Shown here one piece after another: positions 26,161-63,769 of a DNA stretch of 64,000 nt. Made by a program: the position numbers and the translations under genes. This stretch comes from Pagrus major (taxonomy: Eukaryota; Chordata; Actinopteri; Spariformes; Sparidae): positions 21,866,040-21,930,039 of the forward strand of contig NC_133225.1 of assembly GCF_040436345.1 (NCBI RefSeq), written 5' to 3'. How positions within the stretch are numbered: position 1 is the first letter of the stretch; every line of letters begins with the position of its first letter. The notes below the pieces were generated by a model. The model did not search any database and had not been told where the DNA came from. It was given only the letters and a program-made list of their open reading frames with translations.

Positions 26161-29100
26161 ATGGCGGAGTCGGATGGAGGGGATTTTGCTTCGAAGCATC
26201 CACAGAGCAGGTGAGTGAAGCTGGGTGAGGACGCGGTGTGACCACGGTGTTGGGCTAGTCCCTCGGTGTTACCTTATAGGAAGCCTCCACGGCTCCGGGA
26301 CTGCAGCCCAGTTCGAGTCCGCTGAAAGGTTCCGCCGTGGCGGCTTGGCTGCAGGAAACACCGGGGAGTTGTGCGGGCCTCCAGGCAGTCATACTCTGAG
26401 TTTTAAAATCGATGGCCAGCAGTGTAAATAAAGTCAGGATGTAACAATTGTCCATTTAGAGAAGTAAACACACCGAACTACGTCTGCTGTCTTGTAGCAG
26501 ATGAAGTTTAACTCATGTGTTGACGGTTTGGTAAAGCTTTCTCCCTATTTTTAATCGCTATTTCAGTATTTACAATACTTTTTGGCAATGCTGATGCAGT
26601 AACGCTGCCCCACATAATGTCTCTGTTAATGATTACAGTGCCTTCTGTGCAGCAGTCAGCCAACAAAACACATTGAAAGTTGTGTCCTCAAAACAACACT
26701 TTTCTAAATAAAGTTGTAAATTGACTATATACTTGTACCATATTTTGAATGAAGTCAGATACAACACTGACTGATGACAGCTGTGTCTACAGCACCACTG
26801 ATAGGTGATTTTTATTTTTTTTTTTAGCTTAAATGCTTGATATAAAACAATTAGGGTGTTTCCACAGTACACTGGTGACAGACAGAAAGTCAAAAGTGAA
26901 AATAATTAAATGTACAGCAATAATTAAATGATATATGCACCCGTATCCCAATATCCCTAACTTATTTTGAGTAGTGTATAGTGTATATGAATTGCAGAAC
27001 GTAAACTGCATTTACAGGTTTGTTAATAATTCCTCAAATATGGTTATCAAACATTTAATAAAGGCAAACAATAAGCCGCAGTAAAAAAAGACAACTGTAA
27101 CCAAGATATGTACAGAGCAGGACACTTTGCAGTTAAAAAAAAAAACCTGTGGCTTTCTTGTGGACAGATTACCATATTGGCCCGCATATGAGATGACCAC
27201 TCTTTTTGGAGCTCCTCATCAAGATATTTTGTGACACCAGTAATTACTGGCTCAAAACACACTTCCTATTAAATTAGTTAATTAGTTGAATTAGTGCAAT
27301 TCTACCCTATCCTTTCATACAACAAAGTTGGTACTCATAGTGGATCTTTAAGGTATAGATAATTATGAAAACTGCATGTAATAACTCATAATTATACGCA
27401 GACTTCAACTTGACCATGTGTCATCATTATAATGTGTTTCTGTAGTTCTGGATTTAAGATATTTAAGGGAAGGACACAACTATGGCTCCTTAAAATCTGT
27501 ACACATTTAAACTGTGTAAGTCAAATTTTCAGGGGAATTCGTCTAGAGCATCTTTTGCCAAACCAATATATTGTCCTATCCCTATTGGCCGGTGGATTAA
27601 TATATTAATTTAGGTATATTATTTTGAGTTAGAGGTTCAGTTCTCCGGTTATCCAGTTTCTAATTAAGGCAGATTGTTCATTTATTCTCAAGATGGCAGC
27701 CTGCTGGTTGTGTGTAGTACTACTGAGTCCTGGCTGTTTGTCTCACCACCTCCCCTCTATCCATGCACACACACATTCACATACATCACAATCAGCTATT
27801 GTATTTTTCCTCCTCCAAACTATTATTATTATTATTATATTGGCCTTTATAAAATCCACCAGCAGTCAACTTCTAATTGCACTGTTGTTTTTTTCCTGTG
27901 CAAAGATGCACTCTCACTAATGCAAAGACCCTGTACACTACAGACTGCATCCCCCCTCTGACTGTAGCAGATTAGATTACATTTCCATTACAGTATTCCT
28001 GTGTGCATCTACACCAGACATTAGATCACATTTTAATATTCTTGAGCTACAGCCTGCTTGGCCAGAATACTAGAGCTTCCTGCAGCATACATAATATTAA
28101 AAATAGCCATGGATAAAAACAGTGAGTTTTATTTGAAAGAAGTGTAGGCTCCCTTGATTCACTGCTTGTGTCAAGGCCTTGTTTTTCTTTCCAGTATGGC
28201 TAACAAGAATAGCACCCTGCGCTGTACATTCTCGGCCCCAAGCCACAGTGCCACCCTGCTCCAGGGCTTGTCGGTCTTGCGGGCTCAGGGTCAACTTCTT
28301 GACGTCGTGCTGGCCATCAATGAAGAGCGCTTCCAGGTCCACAAAGCTGTGCTGGCCGCCTGTAGTGATTACTTCAGGTTAGTCTGAATCACAAGACTTC
28401 TCACTGCTATTTACATTTTAAATTGGAAGCACTTAGCTGATGCTCTTACCCGGAGCAATTTACACTGAGTGCACTGCTAGTAAGCTGCAGGTCACAGATC
28501 AACTACTTTCAAAACAATTCGGTTGGGAGAGGAAGATAAAGCAGGGAGAAATGTGAAACCAAATGCAAAGTGATGCACTCACTTCGGCTTGTTTTCTCTC
28601 ATTTTGTCTTTGATCTGAGCCATTGTACTTCACTGAATTTATATTTACAGAGCTCTTACTAAATTTACTTACTGACTAAAAGGGGAAAGGCGTATTGCAT
28701 AGATGGAAAGTGAGGACGTTTTGAAATGATAAATCATGAAATATGAATTAGATAAATGTACAAATGAGTGACATAAAAATGTGGACAAATATACTCTTTT
28801 GCACACTATTCTCATTAAATGGTAGTTTGCAGTTCATCATAACATGGACACCAGACCTTTATCCAAAACATTAATCCAGAAAGAAGAAAGCTTCTTCACA
28901 TCATACAAGTGCTCTGACTTATTTTTAGAAAGTAAAACAAAATTCATGGAAATTTAAATCGGTGCCTTTCATTTAAAGAGACTGAAAACATCATGTGGTT
29001 TACTGACTCGTTCTTGTGTTACAGAGCAATGTTTACCGGAGGCATGAGGGAGTCAAATCAAGATACCATTGAGCTGAAGGGTTTGTCTGCCCGTGGGCTG

Positions 29101-30606
29101 AAACATATTATTGACTTTGCCTACAGTGCCGAAGTCACTTTAGACCTGGACTGTATTCAGGATGTTCTCGGGGCAGCTGTGTTTCTGCAGATGGTCCCAG
29201 TCGTGGAGCTCTGCGAGGAGTTCCTCAAGTCAGCGATGAGTGTGGAGACCTGCCTGCACATTGGCCAGATGGCCACCACCTTTAGCCTGTCTTCCCTCAA
29301 AGAGTCAGTGGATGCCTTCACCTTCCGTCACTTCCTCCAGATTGCAGAGGAGGAGGACTTTCTGCACATCCCCATGGAGCGCCTCGTTTTCTTTCTCCAG
29401 AGCAACAAACTCAAGAACTGTAGCGAGATCGACCTCTTCCACGCCGCCATCAGATGGCTCCAGTACGACGACTCTCGTCGGGCTCAAGCCAGCAGTGTCC
29501 TGTGCCACGTGCGCTTCCCGCTCATGCGCTCCTCAGAGCTGGTGGACAGCGTCCAGACGGTGGACATCATGGTGGAGGATGTGCTGTGCCGCCAGTATCT
29601 CCTCGAGGCCTTCAATTACCAGATTCTTCCCTTCCGACAGCATGAGATGCAGTCTTCCCGGACAGTCATACGTTCTGACGTCAAGTCACTTATCACTTTT
29701 GGCGGGACGCCCTACACTGACAACGACCGCACAGTGAGCACCAAAGTGTACCATCTCCCTGACATCGCTTCCCGCCAGTTCAAAGAGCTGACAGAGATGG
29801 AGTCAGGGTGCAGCCACGCTTGTGTTGCTGTACTTGATAACTTTGTGTACATAGTTGGTGGACAGCACTTACAGTACCGCAGTGGCGAGGGAGCAGTAGA
29901 CAGCTGTTATCGCTATGACCCGCATCTGAGCCAGTGGCTAAGGATCCAGGCCCTGCAGGAGGCTCGTATCCAGTTTCAGCTCAACGTGCTGAATGGACAG
30001 CTGTACGCCACAGGAGGGCGCAATCGATCTGGCAGTTTGTCCTCTGTAGAGTGTTATTGCCCAAAGAAGAACGAGTGGACTTATGTGGAACCATTAAAAC
30101 GCAGGATTTGGGGTCATGCAGGAACTCCCTGTGCAGAAAAGCTGTATATCTCGGGAGGTTATGGCGTCTCGTTGGATGACAAGAAAACCCTCCACTGCTA
30201 CGACCCAGCTTCAGACCAGTGGGACTTCAGAGCGCCGATGAATGAACCCAGAGTGTTGCATGCCATGATCAGCACCAGGGATCGAGTTTATGCTCTGGGC
30301 GGTCGCATGGACCACGTGGACCGTTGTTTTGACGTGCTTGCTGTCGAGTATTACATTCCAGAGAACGACCAGTGGACCACCGTCAGTCCCATGAGAGCAG
30401 GGCAGTCCGAGGCCGGCTGCTGTCTACTGGACAGGAAGATCTACATCGTAGGTGGTTACAACTGGCACCTGAACAATGTTACAAGCATCGTGCAGGTGTA
30501 CAACACAGAGACAGATGAGTGGGAGAGGGATTTGCACTTCCCAGAATCCTTTGCTGGCATCGCCTGTACACCAATTATAATTCCACAAAACACCACACAA
30601 CGCTAA
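26161..30606 (+). CDS. klhl26: Kelch-like protein 26, complete
   Basis: A BTB-BACK-Kelch protein; the family acts as substrate adaptors of CUL3 ubiquitin ligases, and the KLHL26 substrate is not established. Three coding exons: 26161-26210, 28195-28377, 29025-30606. They total 1815 nt (604 aa; the human protein is about 615). Exon 1 begins MAESDGGDFASKHPQS, which fits the MAES start of the family and ends at a strong GTGAGT donor. The BTB domain (about 40-150) contains GQLLDVVLAINEERF and HKAVLAACSDYFRAMF. BACK (about 160-260) contains SVETCLHIGQMA and LPFRQHEMQS. Six Kelch blades (about 300-590) show paired glycines such as YIVGGQHLQYRSGEGA, YATGGRNRSG, YISGGYG, YALGGRMDHVD and YIVGGYNWHLNNV. 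KLHL9 and KLHL13 are related, but the detailed sequence and the neighbouring crtc1 fit KLHL26. Confidence 0.93.
26925..26976. mobile_element. Solo end of the mariner-like MITE family
   Basis: GATATATGCACCCGTATCCC and the following AATATCCCTAACTTATTTTG match the right end of the element at 2572-2781 and are followed by TA. The other end is degraded beyond recognition. It lies in klhl26 intron 1. Confidence 0.55.
28412..28505. repeat. Dispersed fish repeat (CTTAGCTGATGCTCTTACCC type)
   Basis: The segment resembles the very common fish repeat with the core 'GCTGATGCTTTTATCCAAAGCGACTTACA'-like wording, here mutated. The class is uncertain. It lies in klhl26 intron 2. Confidence 0.4.
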
Positions 30607-36315: not shown

Positions 36316-39300
36316 ATGGCGTCCTCTAACAATCCCCGCAAATTTAGCGAAAAAATCGCTTTGCATAATCAGAAACAGGCGGAGGAGACCGCTGCGTTTG
36401 AAGAAGTGATGAAAGACTTGAACATCACCAGAGCCGCACGGGTAAGACCCGCTCGCCCCGGCTGTTTACATTGTGTTGCATCGCTGTTTGGCAGCTAACG
36501 AACGCTGCGGATATAAATCTGAACGTTGGGATGCTAAGTAAGCTAAAGTTAATATGATCGTCCGTAGCTGCATCAGTCCAACACCACCAAATGAGGTTTC
36601 CAGTCTGCCTGGCAGAAGCGCTATTCAGGGACATCAAGCCACTCGTGTGCTGCGTTAACTGTCTTAGCTAGGCTGCTGAGGATGTGAATAATGTGCACCT
36701 GTGCTCTGTCTGAGGCTGCTTTGAGGAGTCACTGCTGTCATTGCACTAGCAAACAAATCGTCTGACATGTCGCTTAATCACGCGTTTAAAAATATGTTCG
36801 GTAAGTCAGCTGCTTTCAACTAAAAATAAACAGGTATATCTTTAAGGGGGCTAAGTTAGCATTTGCAAGCCAATCAGATGTTAACCAGCCTTCCAGCTGT
36901 GTTTTTCTTTTCTTAACTCGTTTACCATTCAGAACTAGCTTAACGAAACCCCTTATTTTAGCTCGGCAGCATATTAGCTGACTACTTTTACATGTTTCAA
37001 AAAGCAAACGTCGGACTGGTGGAAAACAAATACAGCTCTAAAAAGAAATCCCACATGCCTCTTGTGTGCTCCTATTTATAACAGTTTAACTCAGTTATCG
37101 CACGGTCCCGTTAATCCAATAACTTTGACAACTTTCTCTCGACCGCTGTAAAAAGTTACCTCAAAAACGAGCGTTGATTATCGATTAATCTGCTGTTTAG
37201 TCTAGAGCTGAAATGATCACTCAATTAATTGATTAGTTCATTGATGGAAAAGAATGGATGATTTTGATGATTGATTAGTTATTGAAGTCATGTATTACTC
37301 TAAAGTTATGTATATTAATTAATATCTTTGGATGAGGGATTTTAATGATTAATCATTAGTCGATTGATCGTCAGAATTTAACTGAAACGGGCAAAAAATA
37401 CCTAAAAAAGCGTCTTGTTAAGAATTACTAATACTTTCTTCTCAGATATATCAAAATAAAACAAAGTGCTGATGTGAGAAATGTATTTAATGAAAACACG
37501 AGTCAATTATGATTGAAAAGATACTAAAAGACCTTTTATACAAACTGACATTATTACATTATAGCCATGTAGTAGCATCAATATGGTTGGATTTTGTTGG
37601 TGAATAGCGACAAGACGTACGCTCCGCAGTGAAAATTGAGTCATTATTTTGTGTTGCTTAGTTTATCATTCAAGTAACTTCACTTTATCTTTTTTTTTTT
37701 TTTTTACTCTCATAAAACAGCCAACACTTTTTCACCGATTATTGATTGTTCAGGCTGTCATTTAAAGAAATTCCCCAAGATTTCCAACCCTACTTTGGTT
37801 TTGTGACTACTGGACGGACGAAACGGGCAATTTTACGACTTTACTGTGGGATTTGAGACATCATGACAAGCATTCTCCATTGTTTTCTAACACTTTACAG
37901 ACGAAACAAAGACTAAAAATGATCAGTTGATTAAACGAGGATGAAAATGATATAGTTCAGTCATAGTTTACTCTATAAAATATCAGAAAATACAAAAAAA
38001 TGCCCATTACAACAACAAGTTTTTACTTGAAACGTGACTGAAACAGTTAATCAATTATAAAAAAATTGTTGCCAATTCATTTTCTGGTTATCAACTAATC
38101 AACACATCGTTTCAGCTCTAATAACCCAAAAAAAGAAAAGAGGAAAGGTTTTTTTGCCAGGAATCGTTTTGGTCTAATTGTTGGCTGTATTGCTGGAAAT
38201 GATGCTCACATGCTGCATCAGTGTAAACCCGAGCTGTACTGTCATTTACTGCAGGGAAATATAATTAATTGGTCAGTCTTGTGGTCTCTGCCAGATTTCT
38301 TTTTGTTGCCATCCAAACATCGATCCATTGCATCTGTTCCGATCATTATCAGTCTGACTTCTGTTCATTCCTAGTGTAAGAGGACTTGCATCACAGTGTT
38401 TCTGTAATTACATGCATCAGTTTTGTGACTGGTTTTGTATGAAGACATGTGGCTAATGTAATCACTAGGTGTGTTACATGTAAAGACTCTAATTACACCA
38501 GCTGTCAGTCAGGTGTCAGCTGATGTGATTTTTCTTTGCTATGAGAGATGTCGTCTGCCTCCTAATTGTCCATGAAGCAGACAATCTGCCTGTCTCATCA
38601 TGTGTCATCTGTCACTTAATGGATTCATCCATCTTTCACGTCACCACTGTGGACTGGCAGGCATCATTCACTTTTTAGCATCACTTTTTTGTGAATCAGA
38701 TCAATCATTCACTCATGCTTTCATGCAATTTTACTTTGCACAGTTGCAGTTACAGAAGACCCAGTATTTGCAACTAGGGCAGAATCGTGGACAGTACTAT
38801 GGAGGCTCACTGCCCAATGTCAATCAGATTGGAAATGGCAACATTGACCTGCCTTTTCAGGTGAGCCCTTAGCCTCTCTCGGCTGGTAAATCAATGGTTT
38901 GTGCTCGACCGGTGTACCTTTCTTAGCTGTTGGTGATGTTATTGGACATACAAAGGTTGCAGTTATCTGTTGTATTGGTGAAAGATTGGCTCAAAACAGA
39001 TAATTCCACTTTTTTTAAAAAAAGAATTGAAGAAAGTCTGCAGGCTTAGTTCATCCTATGAAGGCTGAAAAATGACCTGCTGGTCAGAGCTGCACAGTCC
39101 AACCAGGTTCATCATGGTTCAGGAGCGAAAGGAAGCCAGAAGTGTGTAATACAAGATGTACCAGTTCTACCCTGCAGTGTAATTTGGTTCCTAAATTTTA
39201 AACTATATCATTGCTTGTCATGGCTTTCCATCTTAAAATACATTTGCCAACTCGAGCATCAGTATGGGGGGCCCATGGCTTGACTCATTTTGAAATGAAC

Positions 39301-42300
39301 ACATTTACACCATTAATCCTAAGACATTTTAGTTTTGCTGTGTAAGTACGCTGTTTTTGCTGGCCTCATTCACCCGATGTGTTCACTCCAGAACTCGGTG
39401 CTGGATACCAGTCGAACAACCAGGCACCACGGGCTGGTGGAGCGAGTTTACCGTGACCGGAACCGCATCACGTCTCCTCACCGCCGGCTGCTGTCAGTCG
39501 ACAAACATGGACGCCAGATATCCTTTTTTGGTCACGGAAGCATGTTATGTTGAGGATGTTTTGACTGCATTCATTGTAGCTTTTAGGCTTGAGAGGCTGC
39601 TTGAACATTGTTCTGACAACTTCCACCTTCATCTGTTGTTGTAATTAATTTAGCATGTTTAGAGACGTAACACTGAGTAGGTTTGAACAGTGTCAACACA
39701 GTTTTCATCTGATCTACTGCTCCTCGAGTGTTGCTATAATTGACTGGGAACCCAAAATGCTCTAAACAGAAATACAAAACCAGAAAGACAGACTTGAACT
39801 GATTTGTGCTCCGAGATCCAGATATATGGCTTTTCATTCAGCCATAAAATGATGCTAGATGTACAGTCTGGGCAAACGTGACTAGCATGTTTTAGCTAAC
39901 AGTCAGTAACCAACAAACTGCCAAAGCTTTCCATGAGAAACTTACACTTTTATGAGTTGAAACATAGTCTGTAGTTAGCACATATTACACTAAGTGCAGT
40001 CTCTGAACCCATCTACTATTGTCTGATGACAGTTTGGCCACTGTCAGTGTTTTGGAGATGCTGGTGTAGCCAACTTATATCCAGACCAAGACTTCCTCTT
40101 CCCTCTGCCGGTTGTTGTTTACAACCCCATTTGCAACATGATACGTGAGATGAACTATTGACGTCGTCAGCAAACGATAGCCGATGGGTTCCAGCTACAT
40201 GCTGCCCAGTGTGATCTGCCTCTTTTGCACTCCACACGGACTGTTTACCTGCATGCAACCAAAGCCTGCTCAAACGAAGTTGGCCAATACTACTGGGACT
40301 ACAAACTGACTACAAATAGAAACCAATGCTTCCAAAACCCAAATCTTATCCCTTGCCTCCAGATTCTTCATTCAAATGCAGATGTATGTTTATAGGGATG
40401 ACACTAAATACACCCTTTAGCTGAAACCAAGTCATGTCCCAAATTCATTTTTAAGAAATGAATTGTTTTTTTCACGACACATATGCACAGAGCCTGATAC
40501 TGAATTATACAAAGCAATAGACTCTATTATTACACTTCTGTTGAGATTATTCTTAGAACTGTATCTCGCCATTCAATAACAAGACACTGACTGAAGCCCT
40601 TTTCAAAGTAGTTGGATCCCAATAACACTTGTGTGCGGTCATTTATTATGTATCAGGTCTATTAGGTTGAATTAACCAACAGGCTTGAAACTATGGATTA
40701 GCTGAGACCTATTTTTCATCCCCTGTGCTTTATTAGCCTTAACTAGATTCACATTGACAGCTGTCCTTACAGCTCAGTTTACCTCTCCCCACCGCCAGAC
40801 ACTAGCTGGAGAAGGTAAGCCACCGCCCCTTGTAAATTTGCCAAAACAATGAGTAAGAGAGTGAACCAAAAAATTAAATTACGTGACTCACTGTTGGTGC
40901 AAGGTTGCCAAACTCAGCCAAAACAAAGAAGGCTGTATGAAGGCAAATAAAGGTCTGTAACTGAATGTGATTCTTGATGGATGTGATGCTATACATTTGG
41001 CTCTCTACCAGTTTTGGGGATTTGGCAGTGGTTTTGCTGACATCTCATCTTTCTAACACATACAGGACAAATTCGGACTCTGCCTTACACCAGAGCGCCA
41101 TGAATCCGAAGCCCCAGGAGGTGTTTGCAGGGGGATCACAGGAGCTGCAGCCTAAGCGAGGTAATGGAAGATCCAGTTACAAAGACACAGAGACACTTTT
41201 ATTTATTAATGTGCAAGTGTACTAATGCAGGCGGCAAACCTTAAATGACATAAAAGGGTCGATGTCACAAAGAAGAAGATGTAGACTGTTGATGAAATAT
41301 TTATGGAGTAAATGGATACTGATCTCTGGCAGAGGAATGCTTCAGCATGTTGATGGAGTGCTCAGTCGGCTGTGGAGAAGTAACATCTCGGAGGGGAGCT
41401 GAGTCAGGATGATCTAGAGAGAAGGATCAATAATTCACTGATTATCCATGGATTTTGTCTTTTTATGTGTGAGGCTGTGATATAATGAAGCCAACACTGG
41501 CTGGCATCCCCTCAGTCTGTCTGTCTGCTGGTCGCCTTGCTATTTTTAGACTCCCAGGAATCTGGTGCACACAGCACTATATCCTGCTTGACTGGCTCGG
41601 ATATTGATGACTCATTTCTTGCACATTTGAATTGTTATTTATTTTGTTATAGCAAGCAACTGTGTCTTGCTGTTTCACTAATTAGTACTGCTGCTAACAG
41701 TGCCTGGGACGGAGAATTCAGAGTCGAATGCAGACAACAAGGATGCGCAGGATCAGTTGTGGGATGACAAGAAGGTACTGATGGGAGAAGGGAAGGCCGA
41801 CACTTGTACACTTGTTGTGATACATGTAAAGCACTTCAGAGTTGTGGCTCATGATAATGTTTTCTCCTTAGGATGATTCATCAAAGGCCAACACATGCGA
41901 TGTTCCTGGAATCAAGTGAGTCATTTTAGTATATTATTTTATTATAAGTAGTAGTAATAGTGGTATTTACAGTGAAACACTACAGGAGTATCGCAGCCTG
42001 TTAGTCACACAAATATGTTATGTTTTAAGTGCAAGAGACAAGACAGCTGGTCTAGGTACACTGGAAATGTGTAAGAAAGGCAATAAAACATGTCACCTCG
42101 AGTCTTTCAGGAAATGGTTATTATGGTGGTGATGGCAAAATTGATAAACATCCCAAAAGGCAACGTTATACCTCTTACACACCGGACCAAAAACCGACAT
42201 CATCTAACCCGCTAAGCCTTCAATGGGAAAGGGAACAATTGGCATTCAGTCCTGAGTCAGACGACTCTGCAGTAGTCACGGGTGTTTATTGGCTTCAGTT

Positions 42301-45300
42301 CTGATGGGCAGTGACAGGAACACACAACATCAGGGTGCAACACGCTAATTTTTGCCCCTTTTGCTGTGACACAGGTTGAAGTCAAGGACGCCGTGCTTGA
42401 AAATCGTTCAGTCTGCATTGAGTTTGAAAGATAGACCGCAGTTAAAGATGAAAAACAACCCCTGTTGCCTTGTCACTGGCACCTATGTCACTTCCCGATC
42501 CTTGCCAGCTGCCTGATCGGTGCTGCACATGTAAAACCCTCAACAGAGATGAGAAAGAAGCGAGATGTTTCACTCATTAGCCACTTCGATCATCCCCCCC
42601 TGGTTTGATAGGTTGGAACATAGTGATCACAGTATGTCATAGAAAAACTCAGCTGCAAGGTGATATGACAGTAGCTTTCCTCACATCTGATCCAACTTGT
42701 GTCTTTTAGTATATTCCCATCACCAGACCAGGAGTTGAACCCGTCCGTGCTCCCAGCTGCACACAACACCGGTGGTTCACTTCCTGATCTGACCAACATC
42801 CAGTTCCCTCCTCCACTTTCCACTCCGCTGGACCCCGAGGACACCGTGGCCTTCCCCTCCCTCAGCTCGTCCAACAGCACGGGCAGCCTGACCACCAACC
42901 TCACCCACCTGGGCATCAGCGCTGCCAGCCATGGTAATAATACTATTTGAAAGCACTAAAACTGTATGTACATCAGGTGAATGTTGAAGAGCTTTCATGT
43001 GCCGTATTATTTGCTTCCTCGCTAGGGATCTCCACTTCCTCTCAGCCCACCATGACTGTAACGGCACAGCGCCGGCAACCACCCGTGGTGCCGCTCACAC
43101 TCACCTCTGACCTCCATCTCCAACAGTCCCCACAGCAGCTTTCACCCACCCTCTCCTCACCTGTTAACATCACACAGGTAAGGCTCTGCTCTGCTCAACC
43201 AACGCAAGAGAGACTAATAAACAAAAGCCTATTTTGTCACAGGTAACTAGCCTAAACAGAGTCCGTGTTCGTCTTTTCTCAGGCCTTGTCAACAGAGCCA
43301 CTGACGCTGGAGCAGCAGCTCTCCCAGTACCCCCTGTTCAACCAGCTGACGGCTCAGGCCCAGGCTCAGCTGCTCAGTGACCTCCAGAAGCAGCAGCAGG
43401 CCCTGTCGCAGGGCATCCAGCTCATCACCTTGCCAACTCTGGCCTCCCCTGGTACAGCCACTGCCAGCAGCCCTTCCCCAGACAGCCAGAGCCAGACCAC
43501 CGCCAGCATCAGCATCAGCTCGGTGAGTGACCAGGAAGTCTAGTCAGACGCAGGGATAACAGTCAATTTGATGAAATGACAGGGACCATTTTACTTTTTC
43601 TGAAGCGTCAGTTTTCTACCTGCTTGTGCTGAAACTTCTTCAACTGCCCAGAATACATCCCAGTAAATATCTTGACATCCTTTTACTGGCTTACTACTTG
43701 GCTTTGACACTGATTAGCCATTATGTAGAATAATCCACTTTATTAGGAAGAACGTTTCTGTACTCTGGACTACCAGACAATTATGCCTGAAATGTATTAC
43801 TTTTGTTATATTCAGGTTTTTGCTTGCAGGTTCTTTTAAAACTGACAAAATCTTCCTACTATTTGGCACTTTTTTTGTGAGGGTCAGGGCATTTTTTGGA
43901 TGTAGTTGGTTGAATGTGTGTGCACATTTAAAGCGAGAAATTGGCTGATGTAAGCTTATAAGATACAGAAATACACTTTCGACTGTTCTCTATGAACCAG
44001 CAAGTACTTAAACATTTTACTCAAGTAGTGCCAGATGTTACTATTCCAGAAAAATGACATTTTCCAGTAGTGTAGACGAACCAGCCAGCAACAGTTTATC
44101 GGGTGTTAATTGGTGATATTTCCTTCCTGTACACATGAAACCCAGTGAGCAGATCCGAGGCTCATCTTACATCCCATCCTTTGAGATTTGTGTGTGACAG
44201 GCATGAAGCTTAGTGCTAGCTAACCCTCTTCCCTCCAACAGTACCGCAATCAGACTGGCTCACCAGCCACTCAGTCTCCAACCTCCCCAGTCTCCAATCA
44301 AGGCTTCTCCCCCGGCGGCTCGCCTCAAGTAAGGGCCCACCCACCGAGCTAGCTGCTGTTTGGGGAAGGGCTTTGCGCCTGGGGGAAAGCTAATTGTAGA
44401 TGAGATAGGCTGCTTGTCATTCTCTGTATCAGCAGTTAACCTCTCATGGTGTCAACAGCTGCATAACTCATTTCTTCATCACCGCTGTCACTGTTCACTG
44501 TGTGCATGACAACACGCCGATAGTTTGCTGACGGAGGCCCTGACAGATTGTTGTCTTAAAATATCTATAACATCTTTTTAGAATGCAGCAAACAGACACT
44601 TGTCTGATGTGGATGAGCTGCACTTTCATGAAGAGGACTCTGGTTGTTTGCTCCTGTTTCGAGCTCACATGAATAGACAAACAGACTTATAATGTTCTCT
44701 CTGGTTATTACAGAAAAATAATATTACACAATACATTTTGAGTAATTTTCATAATTGATTATACTCGCATTAAAATATTATTGAGTACAGTATTTGCCAA
44801 AAAAGATCTGATGTAAGAATAGGGTCCACAATTAACACCAAAGGGAAAATGTGGGTTTGAATTGGGGATAACCTGCCTAAATGCACAAGTGGTGCAACAT
44901 TGCATAGCTTGTACTGCACAATTGAATAAACTAATACTTGCGTCCAAATAGACTACTCGAATACTAGAGTACACATGCCCATCCCTAATTCCTAAATGCC
45001 AATCGACAGGACATCTTTTGACAAATTGGTATTATGCTCTTGCCCGTAAACTGTTTATTTTGGGCTACTGTGAGACTTAATTATCATCCGTCAGAGTTTT
45101 TAATGACATTTTGTCTTTCGTGAGTCAAGAACTCTCATTAGAGCTAAACTCTGCCTACACAGACTAAATATATCACTCTCTGCTGTGGAAAAGTCATCAG
45201 GCTTTATCATGTTTTCAGTAAAATATTTGGCAGAAAGGCAAAGTCAGCTGCAAGAACTTTGTGTTTAGTGTTTTTCAAGGTGCACTTCATGGGAAACGGC

Positions 45301-48300
45301 CAGAAGCAAAAACTGAAAATTTCATAGTTCTACTAGAGGTCATAAACTCTACAGGGAACTTTTTATGATGAGAATGAGCTAAGTAATATGGTCTATCAAA
45401 AGGAAATCAAAAAGGGAGAAAGCAGATTTTAAAGACACTGGTCAAATATAAATCTAAATTCTGGGCTTTCTTACACTGAATAAGTCGTCTCTGGTGCATC
45501 TGTGACTCAAGAAATGATGTTAGAAACGGTTTGACTGGGACTTCACCACTAAAGAAAATGCCACAAAATTCTAGTGCTTTTCGCATCGCATAAAACTGTT
45601 AAAGGGAAATTCCAGTATTTGTCAACCTCGACGCTGTTCTCATACTTTTTGTCAATTGTGTCAATGACATTTAACCCCCATTGTAGAGATTTAAGACCTA
45701 ACAATGAGAAATGTTTCCCAAAAAAACGTAATCATTTTATCAAAATAAAATGTGAATACTGGCATGAGAAAATGTATTTAATTAGAAAATAGTGATGCAA
45801 CAATATGGAAATTCTCACCCAATTCCGATGTATAAAATAACAATTTGGCCAGTAAACGATATTTTATTTATTTTTATTATTTGTTGTTATTATTAACTCC
45901 CTTTTGTTATAAATGAATAACTAAAAACTGTTTTAAAGCCATTCAGGCCTTCATCACACGTCCCTGTGAATGAGCACAAATTAAATCCTGCAAATTTATA
46001 AAACAACATTCAATATAATCTTCGTTACCATGAAAACAGAAAAAATAACTGCTTCAAAGGCATTTTTAGCCTGCTATAAAACTACATACTCAATGAGAAG
46101 AAAGTTTTAGTACCAAGATAAACATTCTCTTTAGAAAAAGTAGTAAATAGAAAAAACCATCAAGTTCCTGTGATGCCCTCCTACTTGCTTTTGGCTGATG
46201 GTTTTTAAATGGAAAAACATTTAACATACTTCATTTATTCTAAACGATTAACCAGCACTCTATTGTTAAGGCCGCCAACTATCAAAGAAAGAAATTGATT
46301 AAAATTTGCATCTGTAGATCCAATACAGCAGGCAGTTACGTAGAAACGTGTTGATGATTTCTGTGTAATTGAAGCTGTTTGGAAGCTCATACTGGAGTCC
46401 ACGTGGGTTAAGAGTTTTCTTTATCAGTAGTCATAAGAGACAAAAATATCAGAATATCACTCATGTTGATGAAAACCAGAATTCTCCTTTCTCTGTTTGT
46501 GTCATAGTGAACAGGGCTGCTGCAGTCAACACATCACTGCAACCACGTCATGTCCATACTGTCATTTCATGTCTTAGTTTTTTGGATTTTTTTTTTTTTT
46601 TTTGTCATGACGAAATAATTAGATGTCTGCCAAATTAAATTAAAGAACATAATTTTTTTCTCCTCTTTTTGACTCTGAACTGCCTCAGCCCTCGTCATGA
46701 GAACCATTTGCTTTGGTCACCGCTCTGACCCACAGCTGTGTGATTTTGTGTTTCGCTTGTGTTTTCTGTTATTCCATCGCTGAAATGTCTGCTTGTGGGC
46801 GCGGATAACTTGCCTTCTGGCTGATTTTGTTCTTTTAAGTGTATCTGCTTCCTTTACATGTGCACTGACTTTTTTATGGCTTCTTTTTCTTCCCCCAGCA
46901 CATCCCTGTGGTGGGCAGCATATTCGGTGACTCCTTCTACGATCAGCAGTTGGCATTGAGGCAGACCAATGCCCTCTCTCACCAGGTGAACACACACACA
47001 CAATACACAGAAATGACAGAAATGTGCTCCTCAGACAGTCCCTGACTTTATGCTGGGTTACATCTCTGTACCTTTTTAGCTGGAGCAGTTCAACATGATC
47101 GAAAACCCCATCAGCTCCACCAGCCTTTACAACCAGTGCTCCACCCTCAACTACACGCAGGCAGCCATGATGGGCCTCACCGGGAGCAGCCTACAGGACT
47201 CGCAGCAGCTCGGCTACAGTAACCATGGCAACATCCCCAACATCATCCTAACAGGTAGCCACACCGTGAACGTCCATCAGATACACTTTTACATTATTAC
47301 ACTCATGTCGGCTTTTAGCTGTATCATACACATTATTTTTTGGTTGTTTTTTTGCCAATAATATGCAGATAATGTTGAGTTTCACTGCTTTGACAGGGTG
47401 AAATTAGCCTCTAGTCTCTTCTCCTTCAAGCACAAGCAAAGCTCTTGTTTAGGGAAGTCAAGAACGTGCTTCAAATAACTTTTTTTAGTTACGCTAATCA
47501 CTGAATTATTTCATCTCGAGATAACAAAGCTAGTTTTCTAATGATAGCGGGTTAATTTGTGTACATTTCTCTATCAAAATAATGAACTTGTGCTCTGGAG
47601 ATCGCAACACAAACGCATGTGCTAACTAGATTAAGATTAGGAATTTTTTTGATATCGCAAAAGAAAATGCTGCGATACCATCGCGGGACTGTGACGGTTA
47701 TTTTGCCCGTTAAGTTCGTGGATCTAACGTGGGAAATCAGTATAAATGCATTCTGCTCTCTCTCCTTGTCATTGTATTGTTCTGTTTAAACAGCAGAGGG
47801 TGCAATCATACTGCTTAAGAAGACCAGACCCCTGTTATTATCGGTCACACCTGAGCTCTCATAAGACCCGCCCTACTCCACCTCTGATTGGTTGGGTTCA
47901 TTGGTTGCGTTCTCTATGCCGGAACACCCCCGCTCACACAGTAGCTCTGGTAATGTCTGTTTTCGGCAGTGTTTGAACTGTAGTAACACTCCGGCCTCTT
48001 TACACCATCCTTTTAGGCTTCTCTCCTGCTCCTGTCAGGATCACTCATCCTCCGGAGCCGCTCGTGTAGTGTCTCTAGACTCGTCAGATGGAGCAAACAG
48101 GCCGGCTGTCCGCATGGCGGGCTGCCACTGGGCTGCTTCACCTAATGAGCCCAGAGACACTACAGCTGTGACAGCCAGTCGGTGTGTTTACCGGCAGGGA
48201 ATCTCAGTTCGCAATCTGCTGCATCAGCTCAACCGCTGGTTGTTTGTTTTCACAAACCAACTACATGAAAAACATGATGTCAACTCACTGACACCAGACA

Positions 48301-48794
48301 ACCACTGAATTATCAGGGAAGAATAACGTGTCAGTTACACTGACAGAGATTTTCGTGGCCCTGGTCGTTCGCTGAACAACTAGAGTGAGACATCGGCTGA
48401 GTGCCTGTTCTTGGCTGTCCTCCTGTGCCACACCCCTGCGGGTGCCCTGGTAGTCTAATGTACAACTGTGCATGTCGTGATAAATATCATATCAAGAATT
48501 ATTTATCCTGACAATATCGTACCAAGAGTTTTTGGTATTGTATGTCAGTACTCACTTGTTTCTCTGATGTCACGTATCTCAGTCACAGGGGAGTCTCCGC
48601 CGAGCCTCTCCAAAGAGCTGACTAACTCTCTGGCGGGTGTCGGTGACGTCAGCTTCGATGCAGACTCTCAGTTTCCTCTGGACGAGCTGAAGATCGACCC
48701 GCTCACGCTGGACGGACTGCACATGCTCAACGACCCCGATATGGTGCTGGCAGACCCTGCCACCGAGGACACGTTCAGGATGGACAGGCTGTAA
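36316..48794 (+). CDS. crtc1: CREB-regulated transcription coactivator 1, complete
   Basis: A cAMP- and calcium-responsive coactivator that shuttles to the nucleus and binds the CREB bZIP domain. Fourteen coding exons: 36316-36441, 38744-38860, 39392-39517, 40753-40814, 41066-41160, 41701-41774, 41872-41915, 42710-42933, 43026-43177, 43283-43522, 44242-44328, 46899-46985, 47080-47254, 48583-48794. They total 1821 nt (606 aa; human 634) with continuous phase. The CREB-binding domain is at 1-42 ([20 protein letters not shown]). A SIK-type phosphorylation and 14-3-3 site lies around Ser147 ([11 protein letters not shown]). A glutamine-rich middle spans about 341-420. PNIILT near 532-537 resembles a calcineurin PxIxIT motif. 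The C-terminal activation domain (537-606) ends [13 protein letters not shown]. Intron 3 appears to be U12-type AT-AC. Teleosts can have two crtc1 copies; which one this is cannot be decided here. Confidence 0.95.
37203..38120. mobile_element. hAT-like element in crtc1 intron 1
   Basis: The ends TAGAGCTGAAATGATCACTC and (reverse complement of the right end) TAGAGCTGAAACGATGTGTT are inverted copies, followed by ATTAATTGATTAG-type repeats on both sides. This 'TAGAGCTGAAACGAT' end is a familiar fish hAT-like repeat. About 918 bases; no coding frame was seen. A related GGGGCTGTAACTAACAATCA fragment occurs near 32797. Confidence 0.6.
39518..40752 (+). other. crtc1: Probable U12-type AT-AC intron of crtc1
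   Basis: The intron starts ATATCCTTTT immediately after ...GGACGCCAG (codons GRQ), which is the minor-spliceosome 5' consensus ATATCCTT. It ends ...GCCTTAACTAGATTCAC before ATTGACAGCTGTCC (codons IDSC). The CCTTAAC core fits the U12 branch-point consensus, with the branch A 10 bases before the 3' AC. No GT donor near the exon end keeps the conserved protein in frame. Flanking exon phases (0/0) and protein similarity to mammalian CRTC1 (HGRQ then DSCPY) fix both ends. Confidence 0.85.
47640..48545. mobile_element. Probable transposon-derived block in crtc1 intron 13
   Basis: A 0.9-kb stretch between the last two exons is more GC-rich than its surroundings. It begins with GATATCGCAAAAGAAAATGC and ends near TGACAATATCGTACCAAGAG, wording typical of hAT-like fish repeats with cgatat ends. 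Exact ends and duplications were not found. The open frame inside (47892-48308) resembles no known protein and is not called as a gene. Confidence 0.35.

Positions 48795-57044: not shown

Positions 57045-63769
<6,725 letters not shown>

Follow-up and report, generated by a model that had tools for sequence, protein, structure and literature searches.

Minor introns in CRTC genes have already been described in human. Baumgartner et al. (2019; PMC6865273) list 59 younger human minor-intron-containing genes, three of them from the CRTC family, and collapse these three to one candidate gain event. This is the only paper naming crtc among the minor-intron matches listed from open-licence PMC full text; CRTC2 is named elsewhere for SF3B1-related splicing (PMC7469106). 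The fish gene analysed here belongs to the same family and is likewise minor-intron-containing. The central point is thus already known, and the surprise implied by the first-pass annotation at finding such an intron in crtc1 is not supported. What the fish adds to print is the intron position and the subtypes, including a GT-AG difference in the crtc2-like gene: the passages on CRTC in PMC6865273 come without intron position, subtype or fish data, whereas for the fish both position and subtype are given below for four loci (HGRQ/IDS and the like).

The printed U12 signals are a 5′ site ATATCCTT, a branch site TCCTTAAC and a 3′ end AC (Lin et al., 2010; PMC2831892). Lin et al. also described switching of U12 introns between the AT-AC and GT-AG subtypes, with 36 clusters that hold both. 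The AT-AC share of human minor introns is put at approximately 22% (PMC6717393) or 26% (PMC10639083), and the AT-AC subtype of the crtc1 intron is therefore not exceptional. Human LKB1 (STK11) has an AT-AC U12-type intron that is linked to Peutz-Jeghers syndrome (PMC8329584). This is the same subtype as in crtc1, but in another gene and at another intron, and homology is not claimed.

The window, that is the whole 64-kb stretch of DNA that was analysed (C11:21866040-21930039, in a 786-Mb genome of 25 contigs), carries on the forward strand a CRTC gene, crtc1, which encodes a coactivator of cAMP signalling. Its membership of the CRTC (TORC) family follows from Pfam matches to TORC_N (3e-20), TORC_M (1.8e-33, profile positions 87–157 of 158) and TORC_C (1.4e-31). 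Exons were mapped by tblastn, with a working version of human CRTC1 as probe. The coding blocks are collinear from 36316 to 48791, with the last block 94% identical, and the first five exons listed in Table 1 join into one open frame. Exon ends in the later part of the gene are resolved only in part. The intron of interest is the third mapped intron and is in phase 0; the other introns among the joined exons are all GT-AG (3/3). The exon that follows the downstream exon, at 41066, is taken by us to be the carrier of the SIK/14-3-3 site.

Table 1. Mapped features of crtc1 in the window, and the corresponding introns of the four CRTC loci. A slash in a sequence marks an exon-intron junction.
Feature	Position	Strand	Evidence and details
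First mapped coding exon (TORC_N)	36316..36441	+	tblastn, Pfam TORC_N 3e-20, in-frame join
Second mapped coding exon	38744..38860	+	tblastn, in-frame join
Exon 5′ of the U12-type intron, ending ...SVDKHGRQ, phase 0	39392..39517	+	sequence, tblastn, join
U12-type AT-AC intron, 1235 bases	39518..40752	+	signals; same-position U12-type introns in three paralogues
U12-type 5′ splice site ATATCCTT	39518..39525	+	8/8 against the printed U12 consensus
U12-type branch site CCTTAAC	40737..40743	+	last A 10 bases from intron end
AC 3′ splice site	40751..40752	+	TTCAC/ATTGACAGC; exon start ATTGACAGC identical in C21 paralogue
Exon 3′ of the U12-type intron	40753..40814	+	sequence, tblastn, join
Following exon, (R)TNSDSALHQ...	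41066..41160	+	tblastn, join; 3′ end from tblastn and a GT only
Last mapped coding block (TORC_C)	48576..48791	+	tblastn, Pfam
C11 (window) intron, AT-AC, 1235 bases			CGCCAG/ATATCCTT, 5′ ATATCCTTTT; branch GCCTTAAC; AC; branch to end 10
C21 intron, AT-AC, 937 bases			CGCCAG/ATATCCTT, 5′ ATATCCTTAC; branch TTCTTAAC; AC; branch to end 13
C4 intron, AT-AC, 6995 bases			CGGCAG/ATATCCTT, 5′ ATATCCTTCC; branch TCCTTGAC; AC; branch to end 12
C17 intron (L013), GT-AG, 3721 bases	C17:31238690-31242410		CGACAA/GTATCCTT, 5′ GTATCCTTCA; branch TCCTTAAC; AG; branch to end 16

The first-pass annotation had proposed that the exon ending in HGRQ runs directly into a U12-type AT-AC intron, with almost perfect signals and no in-frame GT donor at that point. 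The sequence agrees. At 39517/39518 the exon gives way directly to ATATCCTTTT, the junction reading ...GTCGACAAACATGGACGCCAG/ATATCCTTTTTTGG with the exon edge CGCCAG/ATATCCTTTTTTGG. At the other end, the downstream exon is preceded directly by CCTTAACTAGATTCAC, the junction reading TTTATTAGCCTTAACTAGATTCAC/ATTGACAGCTGTCC (also written TTAGCCTTAACTAGATTCAC/ATTGACAGC). In addition to the complete match at the 5′ site, the branch site GCCTTAAC matches the printed TCCTTAAC at 7/8 positions, its last A lies 10 bases from the end, the intron ends in AC, and position +5 is C and not G. Both junctions proposed earlier stand, while the start of the upstream exon is corrected to 39392, and the downstream exon reads IDSCPYSS, with ATT (Ile) as its first codon, and not DSCPYSS. 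Two features fit less well. The stated optimum distance from branch site to 3′ end is 11–13 bases for minor introns (PMC6717393), so that the distance here is one below the optimum; the branch site is nevertheless scored as present. Minor introns are also biased away from phase 0 (PMC10639083), and the phase 0 of the crtc1 intron is counted against the U12 reading.

A chance match to the U12 signals was considered and rejected, because of the low position-specific rates and because the same signals are repeated in the paralogues. The motif RTATCCTTT occurs once in the 64-kb window when both strands are counted, where shuffles give an expectation of 1.24 (approximately 1e-5 per site), and this sole occurrence sits exactly at the edge of the HGRQ exon. 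The per-site rate of RTATCCTT derives from one occurrence, the site itself, and the shuffle expectation is used in its place. A CTTAAC or CCTTGAC suitably spaced before AC or AG is found at 59 of 127,940 positions.

The paralogues were compared within the same genome, where CRTC probes, with the best candidates scored, found at least four CRTC loci (on C11, C21, C4 and C17). In all four that were found (4/4), a U12-type intron interrupts the gene at the same codon boundary. It is AT-AC in C11, C21 and C4, and GT-AG in C17. The downstream exons start with IDS, IDS, IES and VDS. Apart from their ends the introns have little in common: 5 of the 6 intron pairs compared give no alignment at E 1e-3, and the remaining pair, C4 and C17, shares an internal stretch of 87 bases at 70%. 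Because the introns are otherwise largely unalike, the splice signals are what has been kept. This combination of unalike introns with shared signals points to one ancestral U12 intron, presumably kept by selection. Based on the paralogues of one genome, the fish data would also agree with one intron gain before the vertebrate CRTC duplications.

The paralogues were named from summed tblastn bits against working versions of the N-terminal parts of the human CRTC proteins. By this measure, C11 and C21 are CRTC1-like, C21 being a crtc1 duplicate, and C17 is CRTC2-like. The C4 gene scores 166 bits with CRTC1, 129 with CRTC2 and 127 with CRTC3, whereas in its second exon CRTC3 leads with 54.7 bits, the other two giving 48.9 and 45.1; it is probably crtc3, an uncertain name that comes from the second-exon match only. 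The subtype of the C17 intron, set against the other three loci, resembles the switching described by Lin et al. (2010; PMC2831892). It differs from the clusters in that work in being a difference between paralogues of one genome. The branch-to-end distance in C17 is beyond the stated optimum of 11–13 bases (PMC6717393). This intron also has a nearer AG, only 4 bases downstream of the final A in its branch motif.

If the U12-like motifs were coincidental, the major spliceosome would have to splice at GT and AG sites close to the apparent intron ends. There is no lack of raw material for this, with 13 GT between 39440 and 39639, 15 AG between 40640 and 40829, and a pyrimidine fraction of 0.8 over the 20 bases leading up to the AG at 40736. 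The GT sites are however poor: the first-pass annotation was right that the exon edge itself offers no in-frame GT donor, and the best of the 13 nearby scores 5/9 against MAG/GTRAGT, compared to 6–8/9 for six other crtc1 donors. These include the donor of exon 1, scored at 36442, and donors at 41161, 41775 and 44329, which were located by tblastn and a GT only. The two classes separate clearly when scored both ways, since the AT site at 39518 gives 5/9 as an ordinary donor and 8/8 as a U12 site, whereas the six others give only 3–4/8 as U12 sites. Pairing the 13 GT with the 13 AG between 40640 and 40811 (the remaining 2 of the 15 AG lie at and beyond the downstream exon's own end) gives 169 pairs, of which 54 are in frame and 20 of those are free of stops. 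With none of these 169 nearby pairs do HGRQ and DSCPY, which both match the human CRTC1 probe, stay together in frame, and the GT-AG alternative was rejected on this ground. Moreover, ATATCCTT is found at the exon edge in three CRTC genes and GTATCCTT in the fourth. We regard this explanation as very improbable. Excision of an AT-AC intron by the major spliceosome has a precedent in some sodium channel introns (PMC2831892), but these have G at +5 where crtc1 has C, and the crtc1 intron also has a U12 branch motif, which makes such a mechanism even harder to credit here.

A different possibility is a genuine AT-AC intron with a variable 3′ end, giving isoforms two residues apart: use of the AC at 40758 would lose Ile-Asp, and use of the AG at 40746 would gain Ile-His. 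Both sites are near the branch site and in frame with the AT donor. However, counted from the final A of the branch motif, 40746 is only 4 bases away and 40758 is 16 bases away, the C4 copy, with the exon start ATAGAGAGC, has no second AC, and the exon starts are those of IDS, IDS, IES and VDS across the four genes. Such variation is therefore considered unlikely, although less so than either use of the major spliceosome. The signals, the U12-type introns at the same boundary in 4/4 CRTC loci, the four snRNAs described below and the human CRTC minor introns already in print (PMC6865273) all support the U12-type AT-AC reading. We conclude that 39518–40752 is almost certainly a genuine U12-type AT-AC intron, one that descends from an ancestral CRTC gene and is spliced out by the minor spliceosome.

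All four of the minor snRNAs searched for, U11, U12, U4atac and U6atac, are encoded in the genome. There is one match over the cut-off for each of U12 (131 bits; L014), U6atac (134 bits) and U11 (119 bits). U4atac, by comparison, has two genes over the family cut-off, on C9 (L016) and C24 (L017). The U12 gene reads ...GATGAGTAAGGAAAATAACG, in which GTAAGGA is complementary to the branch motif CCTTAAC; the U6atac gene reads AAAGGAGAGAAGG, and the U11 gene starts with AAAAAGGGCTTC. On the basis of these sequences, the 5′ end of U11 (AAAAAGG) would bind CCUUUUU at the 5′ site of the intron, and GUAAGGA of U12 would pair with the branch site, bulging an A. The AAGGA of U6atac would then take over at UCCUU. 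In this way U11/U12 would recognise the crtc1 intron, and the minor spliceosome would excise it, joining 39517 to 40753.

If the intron were retained, the reading frame in the window would continue for 11 protein letters before a stop. In the paralogues the stop comes at codon 6 (C4), 11 (C17) and 47 (C21) of the intron. An early stop in a retained frame is usual for a random intron. The message would be open to nonsense-mediated decay, or would yield a truncated protein with the TORC_N end but nothing beyond it, and so without TORC_C. Since the introns stop in frame, retention is expected to lower the amount of CRTC protein. We assume that the SIK/14-3-3 site lies 3′ of the retention stop in each CRTC gene.

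LKB1 acts upstream of CRTC via the SIK kinases, in the LKB1-SIK-CRTC pathway. The same genome has stk11 (LKB1) on C21 (L020), where a U12-type intron 179 bases long is of the AT-AC subtype, as in human LKB1 (PMC8329584), with the junctions AAAAT/ATATCCTTC ... CCCCTTGACTCCTGACTTAC/GTATATGG. The two ends of the pathway would thus carry U12-type introns. This may be coincidence, because 770 minor introns are listed for human (PMC6717393). That the pathway is controlled jointly through minor splicing is a speculation that we consider highly doubtful; if it were true, less minor splicing would shift cAMP/CREB signalling output in a concerted way.

The four loci provide a clean case of a U12-type intron common to the CRTC genes of one genome. 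Having AT-AC and GT-AG side by side among paralogues helps to trace an intron that is listed as a candidate late gain (PMC6865273). The CRTC genes are also reasonable readouts in models of minor-spliceosome disease.

It is worth adding that other genes are present in the window. Pfam identifies a kelch/BTB gene at 28939–30603 (+), upstream of crtc1, and a thrombospondin C-terminal domain at 58559–59101 (−), downstream of it, while 2 of the 7 translated stretches of the window, at 59743–60183 (−) and 46720–47190 (−), have no Pfam family match. The two neighbours are, we assume, consistent with the order KLHL26-CRTC1-COMP on human chromosome 19.
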